Assembly (NCBI RefSeq): GCF_017874235.1 | Contig: NZ_JAGGLC010000005.1 | Coordinates: forward strand, 62,001-126,000 | DNA from: Halolamina salifodinae | GTDB lineage: Archaea; Halobacteriota; Halobacteria; Halobacteriales; Haloferacaceae | DNA length: 64,000 bases | Direction: 5' to 3' | Shown: positions 17,791 to 64,000 of the stretch, in pieces | Layout of the letters: each line of letters starts with the position of its first letter | Numbering within the stretch: the first letter of the stretch is position 1 | Made by a program: the position numbers and the translations under genes | The notes under the pieces: model-generated | What the model saw: only the letters and a program-made list of their open reading frames with translations | What the model was told of the DNA's origin: nothing | The model's database searches: none

Positions 17791-20604
17791 ATGCGAATTC
17801 GGGGCCCCATCGTCGACGTCGGCGAGCCACGGACCGTCGGCGGCGGCACCGACCTCGTCGAGATCACGATCCGGCCCGAGCGCGGCGCCGCCGACCCCGT
17901 GCGGGTGACGCTCTGGAACAAGTGGAGCGAGACCGCCGACTACGCCGAGGCGGGGATGGAACTGCTGGTCACCGACGCCGAGGAGTCCGAGTTCCAGGGC
18001 GAGGTGGGCTACGAGACCACGCCCGACTCGTGGGTCGTCCTCGAACCGGAGTTCCTCGTCGACGTGACCGCCGTACGCTCGTGGGTGCAGTGCCCGCGGA
18101 TGTACTACCTCAACAAACTCTCCGGGGTGCCGCTGAAGTACCCCGTCGTGAAGGGGACCGTCGTCCACGAGGTGTTCGGCGACCTGCTCCGCGGGCGGGA
18201 CCTCGAGGACTCCATCGACCACCGCGTCGCCGAGGCCGGCCTCGAACTCGGGGCGCTGGGCTACGACCGCAAGGAAGTCGAGGACGAGGTACGCCGGAAC
18301 GCCGCCGCCGTCGAGGGGTGGCTCCAGCAGGGCACCCTGACCGAGGAGGACACGTGGCGCTCGGAGTACACGCTCATCTCGCCGACGTTCGGGATCAAGG
18401 GCCGCGCCGACGCCCTCAGGCGCGGGATGCCCGTCGAACTCAAGACGGGGAAGAACACCAAACGCGAGCCGCGGTTCCAGGACAAGATGCAGGCGGCCTG
18501 CTACGCGCTGATGCTGGAGGAGCAGGGCGTCGACGTCGAGGGACACAGTCCCTCGGGCAGCCAGACGCAGTCTGGCAACGCCGACACAGCGACCCTCCTG
18601 TACACCAAAAACACCGCGCTCGAACGCGCCGAGGAGACTGGCGACCTCGCCCCGGCGAAGGAGTTCTCCGTGGGCCCGGGCCTGCTGAAGTTCGTCGTCC
18701 GCACCAGAAACGAACTGGCGGCGATGGAGTTCGACGCCGCCGTCCCCACGGGGTTCGAGGCCGACGCCCGCTGTCAGTACTGCTTCGAACAGGACACCTG
18801 CATGGTCGTCTCGGGGCGACTGGATCAGGAGTCGAAAGCCGGCCAGATCGGCAAGCCGCTGCCGGCCGCGGAGCGCGCGTACTTCGAGGGGTTCTACCAG
18901 GGCATCGAGGCCGAACGCCGCGAGGTCCACGCCGAGTACCGCAAACTCTGGGAGCAGACCGCCGGGGAGCGCGCCGAGGACGACCGGGCGCTGCTGGATC
19001 TCGAACCGCTCGACCGCGAGGAACTCCCGGGCGGTCGCTGGCGCCTGCGGGCCCGCAAGCCCGACGACGCCGTCTCGAAGCTCCGGCCGGGCGACGTGGC
19101 GCTCGCCAGCGACGGTGACCCCGTCTCCGGGCACGCGGAACTCTGCCGGATCCAGAGCCTTGGCACCGGGAAGGCCGGCGCCGAAATCGTCGTCGAGGCC
19201 GACGAGCCAGTCGACGTGTGCCGCCTCGATGTCTACCCCTCCGAACTCTCGGTCGACCGGATGCTGACCGCGCTCCACGACGGCGTCCTGAAGGGCGACC
19301 CCGGCCGGAAGGACGTGCTGTTCGGCCGGCGTGACCCCGAGTTTTCGGGGCCACAGCGCGAGTACGTCGGCAACAACGACGCCCAGAACGAAGCCGTGAA
19401 CCTCGCAACCCGCGCCGAGGACTTCGCGCTGGTCCACGGGCCGCCCGGGACCGGGAAAACCTACACCATCGCTCAGACGGTGCAGGCGCTGATCGAGCAG
19501 GGCGAACGCGTGCTGCTCTCGGCGTTCACCAACCGCGCGGTCGACAACGCACTCGAAGCGGTGCGGGAGCAGGGCGTCGACGACGCGGAGATCGTCCGGT
19601 TCGGCACCGAGTCCGGGATCCGCGAGGACATGCAGGACGTGCGGCTGGAGCAGGCCGGCGACCCCGGCGAGCGTATCTCGGAACTCCGGGACGCCTCGCT
19701 GGTGGCGGCGACGACGGCCTCCTGTGGCTCGCGGATCATGCGCGAGGAGGCGTTCGACGTGGCGCTGGTCGACGAGGCCTCGCAGTTGACCGAACCGGCG
19801 ACGCTGGCGGCGATCAACCTCGCCGAACGCTTCGTCCTCGTCGGCGACCACGAACAGCTACCCCCGGTGGTGCAGGCCGAGGGCGGGAAGCGATGGGCGC
19901 CCGAACACAGCGCGGCAACCGACGGCGGAACGGCCGCGGAGTCCGGCGGCGACGGGGCCACCGCCGACCGCCCGCCGCGACTCGATCTCTCCACGTCGCT
20001 GTTCGAACGCCTCCACGAGATGGCGCCCGAGGCGTCGGTCCTGCTGGACCGCCAGTACCGGATGGCCCAGCGGATTCAGGCGTTCTCCTCGCGGGAGTTC
20101 TACGACGGCGCGCTCCGGCCCGCGAACGGCGAGGTGGCCGCCCAGCGTATCGCGGACCTCCCGGGCGTCGACGTCGATGCGATCCCACGGAATCTGCGCG
20201 GTTCGGTCTCGTTCGTCGACCCCGACGGGGAGCGCGCGGGGAACACCAACCCGACGGAGGCCGACCGCGTGGCCGAGGTCGTCGACCAGTTCGTCGCCGC
20301 TGGTGTCGACGAAGAGGACATCGGGGTCATCGCGCCGTTCCGGGCCCAGGTCGCCGAAATCTCCCGGCGCGTCGACGCCACCGTCGACACGGTGGACCGC
20401 TTCCAGGGGTCGAGCGAGGAGGTGATCATCGTCTCCTTCGTGGCGACTGGAGAGCTCTCCGGGCCGATCTACGACGACCCGCGGCGGATGAACGTCGCGC
20501 TCACGCGGGCGAAGAAGTCGCTCGTCCTCGTCGGCGACGCGGGCGCGCTCTCGTCGGATCCGTTCTACGACCGGATGCTCGACTGGGCCCGTCGGGAACT
20601 TTAG
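17791..20604 (+). CDS. Dna2-like nuclease-helicase (Cas4/RecB nuclease fused to superfamily 1 helicase)
   Basis: 937 residues. The N-terminus has an OB-like stretch (residues 1-90). A nuclease follows: first cluster Cys in SWVQCPRMYYLNKL (about residue 101), FGIKGRADAL and PVELKTGK as metal motifs, and CQYCFEQDTC near residues 329-338 completing a four-Cys Fe-S cluster as in Dna2/Cas4/AddB. The helicase half has Walker A VHGPPGTGKTYT (about 550), AFTNRAVDNALE, VDEASQLTEPATL and GDHEQLPPVV (about 658-690), and VDRFQGSSEEVIIVSF plus RRMNVALTRAKKSLVLVGD near the end. This is the architecture of Dna2, which processes flaps and resects ends. A low-complexity insert lies near residues 705-730. Confidence 0.93.
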   Translation: MRIRGPIVDVGEPRTVGGGTDLVEITIRPERGAADPVRVTLWNKWSETADYAEAGMELLVTDAEESEFQGEVGYETTPDSWVVLEPEFLVDVTAVRSWVQCPRMYYLNKLSGVPLKYPVVKGTVVHEVFGDLLRGRDLEDSIDHRVAEAGLELGALGYDRKEVEDEVRRNAAAVEGWLQQGTLTEEDTWRSEYTLISPTFGIKGRADALRRGMPVELKTGKNTKREPRFQDKMQAACYALMLEEQGVDVEGHSPSGSQTQSGNADTATLLYTKNTALERAEETGDLAPAKEFSVGPGLLKFVVRTRNELAAMEFDAAVPTGFEADARCQYCFEQDTCMVVSGRLDQESKAGQIGKPLPAAERAYFEGFYQGIEAERREVHAEYRKLWEQTAGERAEDDRALLDLEPLDREELPGGRWRLRARKPDDAVSKLRPGDVALASDGDPVSGHAELCRIQSLGTGKAGAEIVVEADEPVDVCRLDVYPSELSVDRMLTALHDGVLKGDPGRKDVLFGRRDPEFSGPQREYVGNNDAQNEAVNLATRAEDFALVHGPPGTGKTYTIAQTVQALIEQGERVLLSAFTNRAVDNALEAVREQGVDDAEIVRFGTESGIREDMQDVRLEQAGDPGERISELRDASLVAATTASCGSRIMREEAFDVALVDEASQLTEPATLAAINLAERFVLVGDHEQLPPVVQAEGGKRWAPEHSAATDGGTAAESGGDGATADRPPRLDLSTSLFERLHEMAPEASVLLDRQYRMAQRIQAFSSREFYDGALRPANGEVAAQRIADLPGVDVDAIPRNLRGSVSFVDPDGERAGNTNPTEADRVAEVVDQFVAAGVDEEDIGVIAPFRAQVAEISRRVDATVDTVDRFQGSSEEVIIVSFVATGELSGPIYDDPRRMNVALTRAKKSLVLVGDAGALSSDPFYDRMLDWARREL

Positions 20605-62867: not shown

Positions 62868-62940
62868 GGGCCGGTGGGGTAGCTTGGTATCCTTCGGCCT
62901 TCGGGTGGCCGTAACCGCGATTCGAATTCGCGCCGGCCCA
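62868..62940 (+). tRNA. tRNA-Pro (anticodon CGG)
   Basis: Acceptor stem GGGCCGG/CCGGCCC with discriminator A; anticodon stem CGGCC/GGCCG with loop TTCGGGT, so the anticodon is CGG (reads CCG, proline); T arm CGCGA-TTCGAAT-TCGCG. The D arm contains GGTAGCTTGGTATCC-like sequence. CCA is not encoded. Several fragments of this gene recur downstream (62920-63416). Confidence 0.95.
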
Positions 62941-63126
62941 TTTTCACCCCACTTCGCAACGACGAGCACTAGCGAGGAGTCCGTAGTGCGTGTGTCAATT
63001 ACGCCGCGCGAATTCGGGCACGGGAGACAAGCGAAGCGAGTCTCCCGGAGTTCGACATTCGCGCCGGCCCACTTCTCCCGCATTCTCACACTGTGAGCAA
63101 CGGCCTTCGGGTGGCCGTAACCGCGT
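62920..63126 (+). repeat. tRNA-Pro-derived direct repeat, copy 1
   Basis: Begins in the T arm of tRNA-Pro and runs through a 180-base spacer to a copy of the tRNA anticodon arm (CGGCCTTCGGGTGGCCGTAA at 63101-63120). It contains a second 3'-end copy (TTCGACATTCGCGCCGGCCC, 63051-63070). The whole is repeated 290 bases later with few changes. No gene is visible between 62941 and 63446 apart from these repeats and hairpins. Confidence 0.9.
63021..63047. other. hairpin with AGCGAAGCGA loop (1)
   Basis: CGGGAGAC pairs with GTCTCCCG (8-base perfect stem) around the loop AAGCGAAGCGA. The second repeat copy has the same hairpin at 63311-63337 with loop GAGCGAAGCGA. Confidence 0.75.
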
Positions 63127-63195
63127 CCCCGTGAGCGAAGCGAACGGGGAACGACGAGTCGCATGCCCGGGAAGCGACCGAAGGGAGCGACCCGG
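63127..63195. other. insert with two hairpins splitting a tRNA-Pro fragment
   Basis: CCCCGT-(GAGCGAAGCGA)-ACGGGG at 63127-63149, same loop as the neighbouring hairpins but a different stem, and CCGGG...CCCGG at 63167-63195 with AAGCGACCGAAGGGAGCGA between. The insert separates an anticodon-arm copy (ends 63126) from a T-arm/acceptor copy (starts 63210). Confidence 0.7.
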
Positions 63196-63209
63196 AACGT
63201 CTTGTCTGT

Positions 63210-63416
63210 ATTCGAATTCGCGCCGGCCCATTTTCACCCCACTTCGCAACGACGAGCACTAGCGATGAGTCCGTAGTGCGTGTGTCAATTACGCCGCGCG
63301 AATTCGGGCACGGGAGACGAGCGAAGCGAGTCTCCCGGAGTTCGACATTCGCGCCGGCCCACTTCTCCCGCATTCTTACACACCGAGCAACGGCTTTCGG
63401 GTGGCTGTGCCCGCAT
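63210..63416 (+). repeat. tRNA-Pro-derived direct repeat, copy 2
   Basis: Aligned to copy 1 with an offset of 290 bases; differences are few (for example GAGGAGT/GATGAGT and AGACAAGC/AGACGAGC) until about 63376, then more in the anticodon-arm copy (CGGCTTTCGGGTGGCTGTGC at 63391-63410). It again contains tRNA 3' ends at 63211-63230 and 63341-63361. Confidence 0.9.
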
Positions 63417-63446
63417 CTCGAGCGAACGGGGACTGGCTGTGGCCGC

Positions 63447-63846
63447 TCAGTACGTCATCACTTCCAGCCCCTCCACGTCCCGTAAGTCGGCGTCGTTCGA
63501 CACCACCGGTTCAGCGAGGACCAGCCCGTGAGCGGCGACTGCAGAATCGGCACCATCGAGGTTCTTCAGCCGGTCCGACGCCTCGTGTTTCCCCGGAGTG
63601 TTCCGGCACGGCGAGCCCCCTTCTCATCCAGTTCGATGATCGTCGACGCCTCGAACAACGACTCGTAGTTCCGGCGGATCCGTGTGGCGCGACCGGCCGT
63701 GAGCTTCCCGAGGCCGTAGAAGATCTCCCAGACGACCGTCGACGGGATTCGCGTCGGTGCCTCGCTGGCGTCGATTTCCGCCGCTAGCGTTCGGGCATCC
63801 GATCCTGTTAGGCCAGCGCCCCGAGATACTGCGTATCGAGAATCAC
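63447..63846 (-). pseudogene. vapC: decayed PIN-domain (VapC-type) toxin gene
   Basis: From a GTG at 63846 the frame reads MILDTQYLGALA then stops. The next frame continues SDARTLAAEIDASEAPTRIP, STVVWEIFYGLGKLTAG and IIELDEKGARRAGTLRG, and a third frame ends KHEASDRLKNLDGADSAVAA with VVSNDADLRDVEGLEVMTY. Together they make a full PIN domain of about 133 residues with the early Asp, DGADSAVAAH and NDADL acidic motifs. Two frameshifts, near 63814 and 63590, each look like the loss of one base, so the gene is inactive unless the sequence is wrong. It overlaps the antitoxin stop (GTGA). Confidence 0.8.
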
Positions 63847-64000
63847 GAAAGCTGCTCCTCGATCTCTTCGCGGGCCCGCTCGTCGGAGTTCTCGATCGCC
63901 TGCTCAAGGTTTTCGACGGTCGGGTGCTCGTCGGCCACGTCGGCCATGTCGTCCGCAAAGTCCACCAGCCCGTAGTCGCCCAGCAGCCGCTCGAGCGTCT
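63843..64000 (-). CDS. vapB: VapB-type antitoxin, start beyond the window
   Basis: The last 51 residues are present: LLGDYGLVDFADDMADVADE, then a helical EQAIENSDERAREEIEEQLS end. The acidic helical tail and the four-base overlap with a PIN-domain gene match the antitoxin of a VapBC pair. The N-terminal DNA-binding part lies past base 64000. It remains open, whereas the toxin is broken. Confidence 0.75.
   Translation of the reverse strand, partial: TLERLLGDYGLVDFADDMADVADEHPTVENLEQAIENSDERAREEIEEQLS

Follow-up and report, generated by a model that had tools for sequence, protein, structure and literature searches.

What is recorded by an array of partial copies of a tRNA gene standing behind the intact gene itself? 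This question is raised by a 64,000-nucleotide stretch of the Halolamina salifodinae genome (hereafter, the window), whose sole tRNA gene, an intact tRNA-Pro(CGG) identified by ARAGORN (62868..62940, plus strand), is followed by several fragments of its own sequence. The attL and attR sites that archaeal tyrosine recombinases form at tRNA genes have been reviewed (PMC8371274), and the initial annotation of the locus proposed that the nested copies are tandem att scars left by repeated integration and excision or, alternatively, that the spacers are expressed as tRNA-like RNAs. We found this interpretation to be partly supported.

The repeats themselves are real. With 3 mismatches allowed, an 18-nt pattern from the 3' end of the tRNA has four matches in the window (0.25 expected by chance; 0/100 shuffles gave 4). 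Four recurrences had been counted at the outset; one of them is the tRNA gene itself and two of the remaining three are imperfect, i.e., the matches at 62923 and 63213 are exact and those at 63054 and 63344 carry 3 mismatches each. The anticodon arm (25 nt) does recur twice more, as first described, at 63101 (100% identity) and 63391 (80%), and the direct repeat, given as about 207 bases with a 290-base offset, measures 208 nt (62920-63127 and 63210-63417; 197/208 identical, 95%; offset 290). From tRNA-Pro onward, the order is better read as tRNA-B-A-B-A', i.e., as two pairs of cassettes of types that we call B and A.

All of these units lie on the plus strand. Cassette B1 (62941..63071), delimited by its fold and by relatives with the same layout, is composed of a trailer; a hairpin H1 (62962..62992, from the fold); an inverted copy covering the T arm of the tRNA and some of its acceptor strand, which pairs with the echo (63003..63016, supported by the fold and by an own-tRNA antisense test on 66 cassettes); a second hairpin H2 with loop AAGCGAAGCGA (63020..63048, supported by the fold and by compensatory changes between species); and an imperfect 3'-end echo, found by pattern match, running from the T loop to the discriminator (echo 1, 63051..63071). 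The B1 fold is predicted at -56.9 kcal/mol (z -4.20, matched by 0/200 shuffles). Cassette A1 (63072..63230), delimited by the repeat and by relatives, consists of a trailer; a copy, 100% identical on sequence comparison, of the anticodon arm, variable loop, and 5' T-stem strand (63101..63125); an 84-bp palindromic insert between that T-stem strand and the T loop, recognized from its sequence and hairpins (63126..63209; its first hairpin, 63126-63150, has the loop GAGCGAAGCGA); and an exact 3'-end echo, again found by pattern match (echo 2, 63210..63230). As a whole, A1 folds no better than chance (z -0.20), and its architecture recurs at tRNA-Phe, Tyr, and Leu. The long direct repeat defines cassette B2 (63231..63361), near-identical to B1 and containing the imperfect echo 3 (63341-63361, pattern match). 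Cassette A2 (63362..63432), identified from the repeat and its sequence, is truncated: it keeps the 80% anticodon-arm copy (63391-63415, sequence comparison) and a hairpin remnant, without the T-loop/3' part. The open frames in the array (62941-63432) overlap one another on the two strands, and we took none of them for a gene. With the Rfam 15 covariance models, no match was above threshold in the array, on which basis a known RNA family was rejected for the cassettes, and only tRNA was matched in the cassette loci. Beyond the array, the minus strand of the window (63440-64000) carries a broken frame that resembles, by eye, a decayed VapC-type toxin with its partner, with no Pfam match.

We have shown that the tRNA-Pro array is one case of an arrangement found across haloarchaea and not a local oddity. 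In five haloarchaeal genomes, 55/123 tRNA genes are followed by an echo of their own 3' end, defined as a match to the last 20 nt of that tRNA, allowing 4 mismatches, in the 420 nt that follow it (23/45, 13/27, 14/34, 2/9, and 3/8 tRNAs per genome, with a few tRNAs examined in each of G003 and G038; the denominators, from ARAGORN and Rfam, include some doubtful entries, e.g., 'tRNA-Stop'). The same search gave 1/123 upstream, 0 for 5'-end copies downstream, and 1.6% for the 3' ends of other tRNAs. Among non-haloarchaea of the same phylum (other families), 0/55 tRNAs had a 3'-end echo, and the difference is significant (Fisher p = 1.6e-11). If the tRNA tail had simply been duplicated in tandem and had then decayed, with no mobile or structural meaning, the genuine 208-bp duplication in the window array would be accounted for; however, the same layout stands behind many different tRNAs throughout the class and is absent from those 55 non-haloarchaeal tRNAs. 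We disfavor this reading, which we regard as extremely improbable.

The extent of the arrangement was also explored by scanning the GTDB species genomes with an 18-nt motif from the H2-echo junction, which was matched at at least 80 loci. Among the matches listed, 79/80 loci are archaeal, nearly all titled haloarchaea, and 1/80 is a Gemmatimonadetes contig. In all the loci analyzed, a same-strand tRNA precedes 110/126 motif sites by 69-530 nt (median 105), and 100 of the 110 are at least 80% identical to the 3' end of that very tRNA; of the 16 other sites, 5 are clearly not behind a tRNA and 11 are at locus edges.

Closer to the window, a query made of the tRNA and its array found a match in 55/60 related genomes, many of them to the tRNA alone, and of 24 relatives whose sequence behind tRNA-Pro was read, many carry similar fragment modules and some carry none. 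Since arrays of this kind follow tRNA-Pro in numerous other genomes, including several complete ones, the array is not the assembly duplication that had been considered as a possible source of error. Nor are the arrays identical in all relatives, the other situation named at first as speaking against integration: they differ between species. Within Halolamina, the Pro locus reads B-A-B-A' in the window genome, A-B' in G003, and B alone in several. At tRNA-Lys(TTT), the cassettes of two species are related, a further species shows a decayed echo, and another carries an H2 of a different type. The echo is missing in three more; at these three sites the start of H1 is still present, hence they read as losses and not as a pre-insertion state. 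At tRNA-Asp, the cassettes go from none to two or more and the H1 types change order. At Pro, Lys, and Asp, cassettes thus turn over within the genus by gain, loss, and change of order. Furthermore, tRNA-Pro(CGG) and a conserved AAA_33 kinase gene are 263 to 9820 nt apart in Halolamina, the additional DNA lying on the far side of the array, and this interval is a cargo hotspot.

Could the repeated integration and excision of integrase elements have built the array alone, all the copies being tandem att scars? Such a variable cargo site beside a tRNA gene fits this explanation, as does the finding that the 3' part of tRNA-Pro is directly repeated behind the intact gene. In the literature, partial tRNAs beside full copies are noted in Haloferax gibbonsii (PMC7921747), and prophage-linked tRNA repeats are known in Haloquadratum (PMC3119063). 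Integrase elements do insert at tRNA genes here and in relatives, leaving 3' copies. We located the tyrosine integrase genes (PF00589) in four genomes and, in agreement with the premise that tRNA genes are integrase targets, two tRNA genes of the window genome hold integrase-bearing elements: tRNA-Leu(TAG) is followed by a 6.4-kb element, an anticodon-to-3'-end copy, and then two type-B cassettes, and tRNA-Thr(GGT) by a 12.9-kb element, an anticodon-to-3'-end copy, and then one type-B cassette. In the related genome G056, tRNA-Tyr precedes a 4.8-kb element, two type-A units, and then a type B; in G059, also related, tRNA-Glu(TTC) precedes a 9.4-kb element, a distal tRNA copy that hairpins interrupt, and then two type-B cassettes. 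In this last copy, 9.4 kb from the intact gene, the hairpin pair lies between the acceptor 5' strand and the D arm. For four further tRNAs, a search reaching as far as 40 kb showed no distal copy, or just the proximal echo.

These occupied sites separate the two types of cassettes. The attR copies are clean at Leu and Thr and hairpin-interrupted, i.e., type-A-like, at Tyr and Glu, and the identity block of the type-A copy at 63101 reaches the anticodon loop as it does in occupied sites, whereas type-B copies start at the T loop. The series of occupied sites supports well, although it does not prove, the reading of type A as a decayed attR (anticodon arm to 3' end) with a later hairpin insertion; the series is made of different tRNAs and not of one locus through time. 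The hairpins would have entered after integration because they lie on the chromosomal side of the anticodon-loop crossover. On the contrary, type B lies beyond attR in 4/4 occupied sites, and is therefore older than the elements, which displaced it. The H1/antisense/H2 signature is absent from the element ends in 4/4, and a collapsed form of the present elements was rejected as the nature of type B at these four sites. Moreover, H2 cores are closer among different tRNAs of one genome than at the same tRNA across families (0/1000 label shuffles), whereas separate elements would not be expected to have an internal hairpin in common at their att sites.

At tRNA-Pro itself, no element or integrase lies between or next to the copies. 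An integrase beyond position 64000, to be sought according to the initial annotation, did not turn up, with no PF00589 match on the window's contig and no integrase family in the ORFs scanned up to ~10 kb downstream. We also obtained 0 matches in 50,697 phage records, and the three IMG/VR matches are one haloarchaeal tRNA-Glu with a cassette and two tRNA-rich contigs without the layout; with plasmid matches merely hairpin-sized, a viral or plasmid origin of the cassettes was rejected. In the end, the idea of nested att scars fits the interrupted copies found at Tyr and Glu but is not supported for the type-B copies, and as a whole account it meets a structured spacer that recurs class-wide at about half of the tRNAs examined. 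We judge it unlikely that att scars alone built the array.

Hairpin pairs similar to those of type A are also found inside other sequences. In the window genome (G000:C1:646248; L315 ~19618-19668), G002, and G006, the Kae1/TsaD gene contains a 51-nt in-frame double-hairpin insert that is missing, leaving an empty allele, in G001, G003, G004, G005, and two other genera. A helicase gene carries a 57-nt in-frame double-hairpin insert in the window genome only (G000:C1:470901; L349 ~1500), with empty alleles in relatives. The inserts of these two protein genes are flanked by repeats of 8 bp (CGACGACG) and 7 bp (GACGGCG), and the filled and empty alleles support insertion as the probable process for the hairpin pairs of these two genes. 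By contrast, no such 7-8-bp duplication is evident beside the hairpin insert of type-A cassettes. We also noticed, in two families, tRNA-Gly echoes (L080, L126, L095) with hairpin pairs in the acceptor 3' strand and possible short flanking duplications. Separately, L339, L343, L345, L353, L354, L356, and L362 share a dispersed repeat that is some hundreds of nt long, lies between genes wherever it was read, and has recurring blocks such as GAATCGGCTGGGGAGG and GTAAGCACCGCAG; it sometimes carries the same double hairpin and matches no Rfam family above threshold.

On the other hand, the structure of type B could reflect selection on RNA. After the tRNA, the order is that of B1, i.e., trailer, H1, inverted T-arm copy, H2, then T loop to discriminator. 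We demonstrated that the inverted copy is specific to the tRNA that it follows: 49/66 cassettes contain at least 8 nt exactly antisense to the T arm of their own tRNA (12.7% with the T arms of other tRNAs, 1.1% with shuffles). Compared in five species, H2 has 22 pairs, with 96% of cells paired and 5 pairs changed on both sides. For hairpins tipped with GAGCG(N1-2)AGCGA, the ratio of the tRNA-sense strand to the opposite strand is 43:1 in echo arrays and 10:4 behind echo-less tRNAs. These GA-tipped, sense-oriented hairpins, the B1 fold (z -4.2), the compensatory changes in H2, and the match of the inverted arm to its own tRNA would all fit a functional RNA, i.e., a read-through tail in which the inverted T arm and the 3'-end copy act as a switch, a terminator, or a processing decoy. 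However, any site-specific insertion would also give a fixed orientation, and A1, as a whole, folds no better than chance. The loops do not follow the usual RNA preference either: GNA forms 19/31 of the three-base loops and GNNA 14/19 of the four-base loops, with GNRA in 1/19. The c-GNA-g and c-GNNA-g loops are very stable in DNA, which provides a lead. Cassettes are found at only about half of the tRNAs, at different tRNAs in different families, and are lost, decayed, or replaced between species of one genus; the echo occupancy by tRNA is not significantly correlated between families. The tRNA-Pro of Haloferax volcanii does have two downstream RNA 3' ends (PMC7237163), at a site not established as a cassette site. 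All in all, the functional RNA seems to us quite improbable as the explanation of the cassettes.

Site-specific or selfish cassettes with recombination at repeats fit these data, because occupancy is variable, cassettes spread within genomes, and they are reordered. We propose, with about even confidence, that haloarchaea carry gene-less cassettes of two kinds, type A being a decayed attR with hairpins and type B a structured unit, that turn over by recombination at the 3' ends. Each cassette is delimited by a direct repeat of the 3' end of the tRNA that it follows. Integrase elements targeting the tRNA would leave an attR, from the anticodon arm to the 3' end, which would later take up a mobile hairpin pair and become a type A. 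Type B would be a palindromic structured cassette at the tRNA 3' end, having first arisen by insertion there and being since then gained, lost, and reordered, most likely through recombination between the 3'-end direct repeats. Because a trailer of its own opens each cassette at the end of the tRNA, the tRNA stays intact, and presumably functional, whatever follows. In the window array, one B-A pair would have been duplicated in tandem, the second A having lost its end, with unrelated cargo distal to it. We found no pre-insertion empty site for type B and saw no cassette moving. Two observations run counter to this proposal: simple insertion does not account for the inverted copy of the T arm, and the conserved, sense-oriented, covarying hairpins also fit selection on RNA. 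More tentatively, and with less than even confidence, the cassettes may be a distinct class, defined by the inverted T-arm and direct 3'-end copies and spread between the tRNAs of a genome by a recombinase or transposase acting on folded hairpins.

How do these cassettes compare with known systems? Like integrase att sites (PMC8371274), of which this genome has occupied examples, they duplicate the tRNA 3' part and leave the tRNA intact; they differ in that the tRNA-Pro array has no element between the copies and that type B starts at the T loop, contains an inverted T arm and hairpins, and lies beyond attR. A passage of the Haloferax gibbonsii LR2-5 account (PMC7921747) notes in passing a haloarchaeal tRNA remnant beside a full tRNA, without mention there of a shared structure, an inverted arm, a class-wide frequency, or turnover. 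REPs and the Rickettsia RPE-1 (PMC3733652) are likewise short palindromes in protein genes, here with two in-frame inserts and their empty alleles, but the haloarchaeal hairpins are paired, have GAGCGNAGCGA tips, and are also found within tRNA copies. The resemblance to integron cassette arrays is one of layout only, i.e., units split by a repeat of recombination size, imperfect hairpins, and an order that varies between species; the haloarchaeal units have no open frames, no dedicated integrase was found for them, and their repeat is a tRNA 3' end. The nearest published accounts that we found are those of LR2-5, Haloquadratum, and the integrase review (PMC7921747, PMC3119063, and PMC8371274), and the literature searched, with preprints and most subscription journals outside its scope, contained no systematic description of the cassettes.

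If this proposal is true, about half of haloarchaeal tRNA genes bear a feature that lies outside every Rfam family. The arrays would then show how a tRNA gene can absorb repeated integration without loss of function, and would constitute a legible record of past integration. They would also point to a process that copies the 3' end of a tRNA beside it, in direct as well as inverted orientation. An effect of the tail on tRNA processing, or a role as decoy integration site, would become testable.
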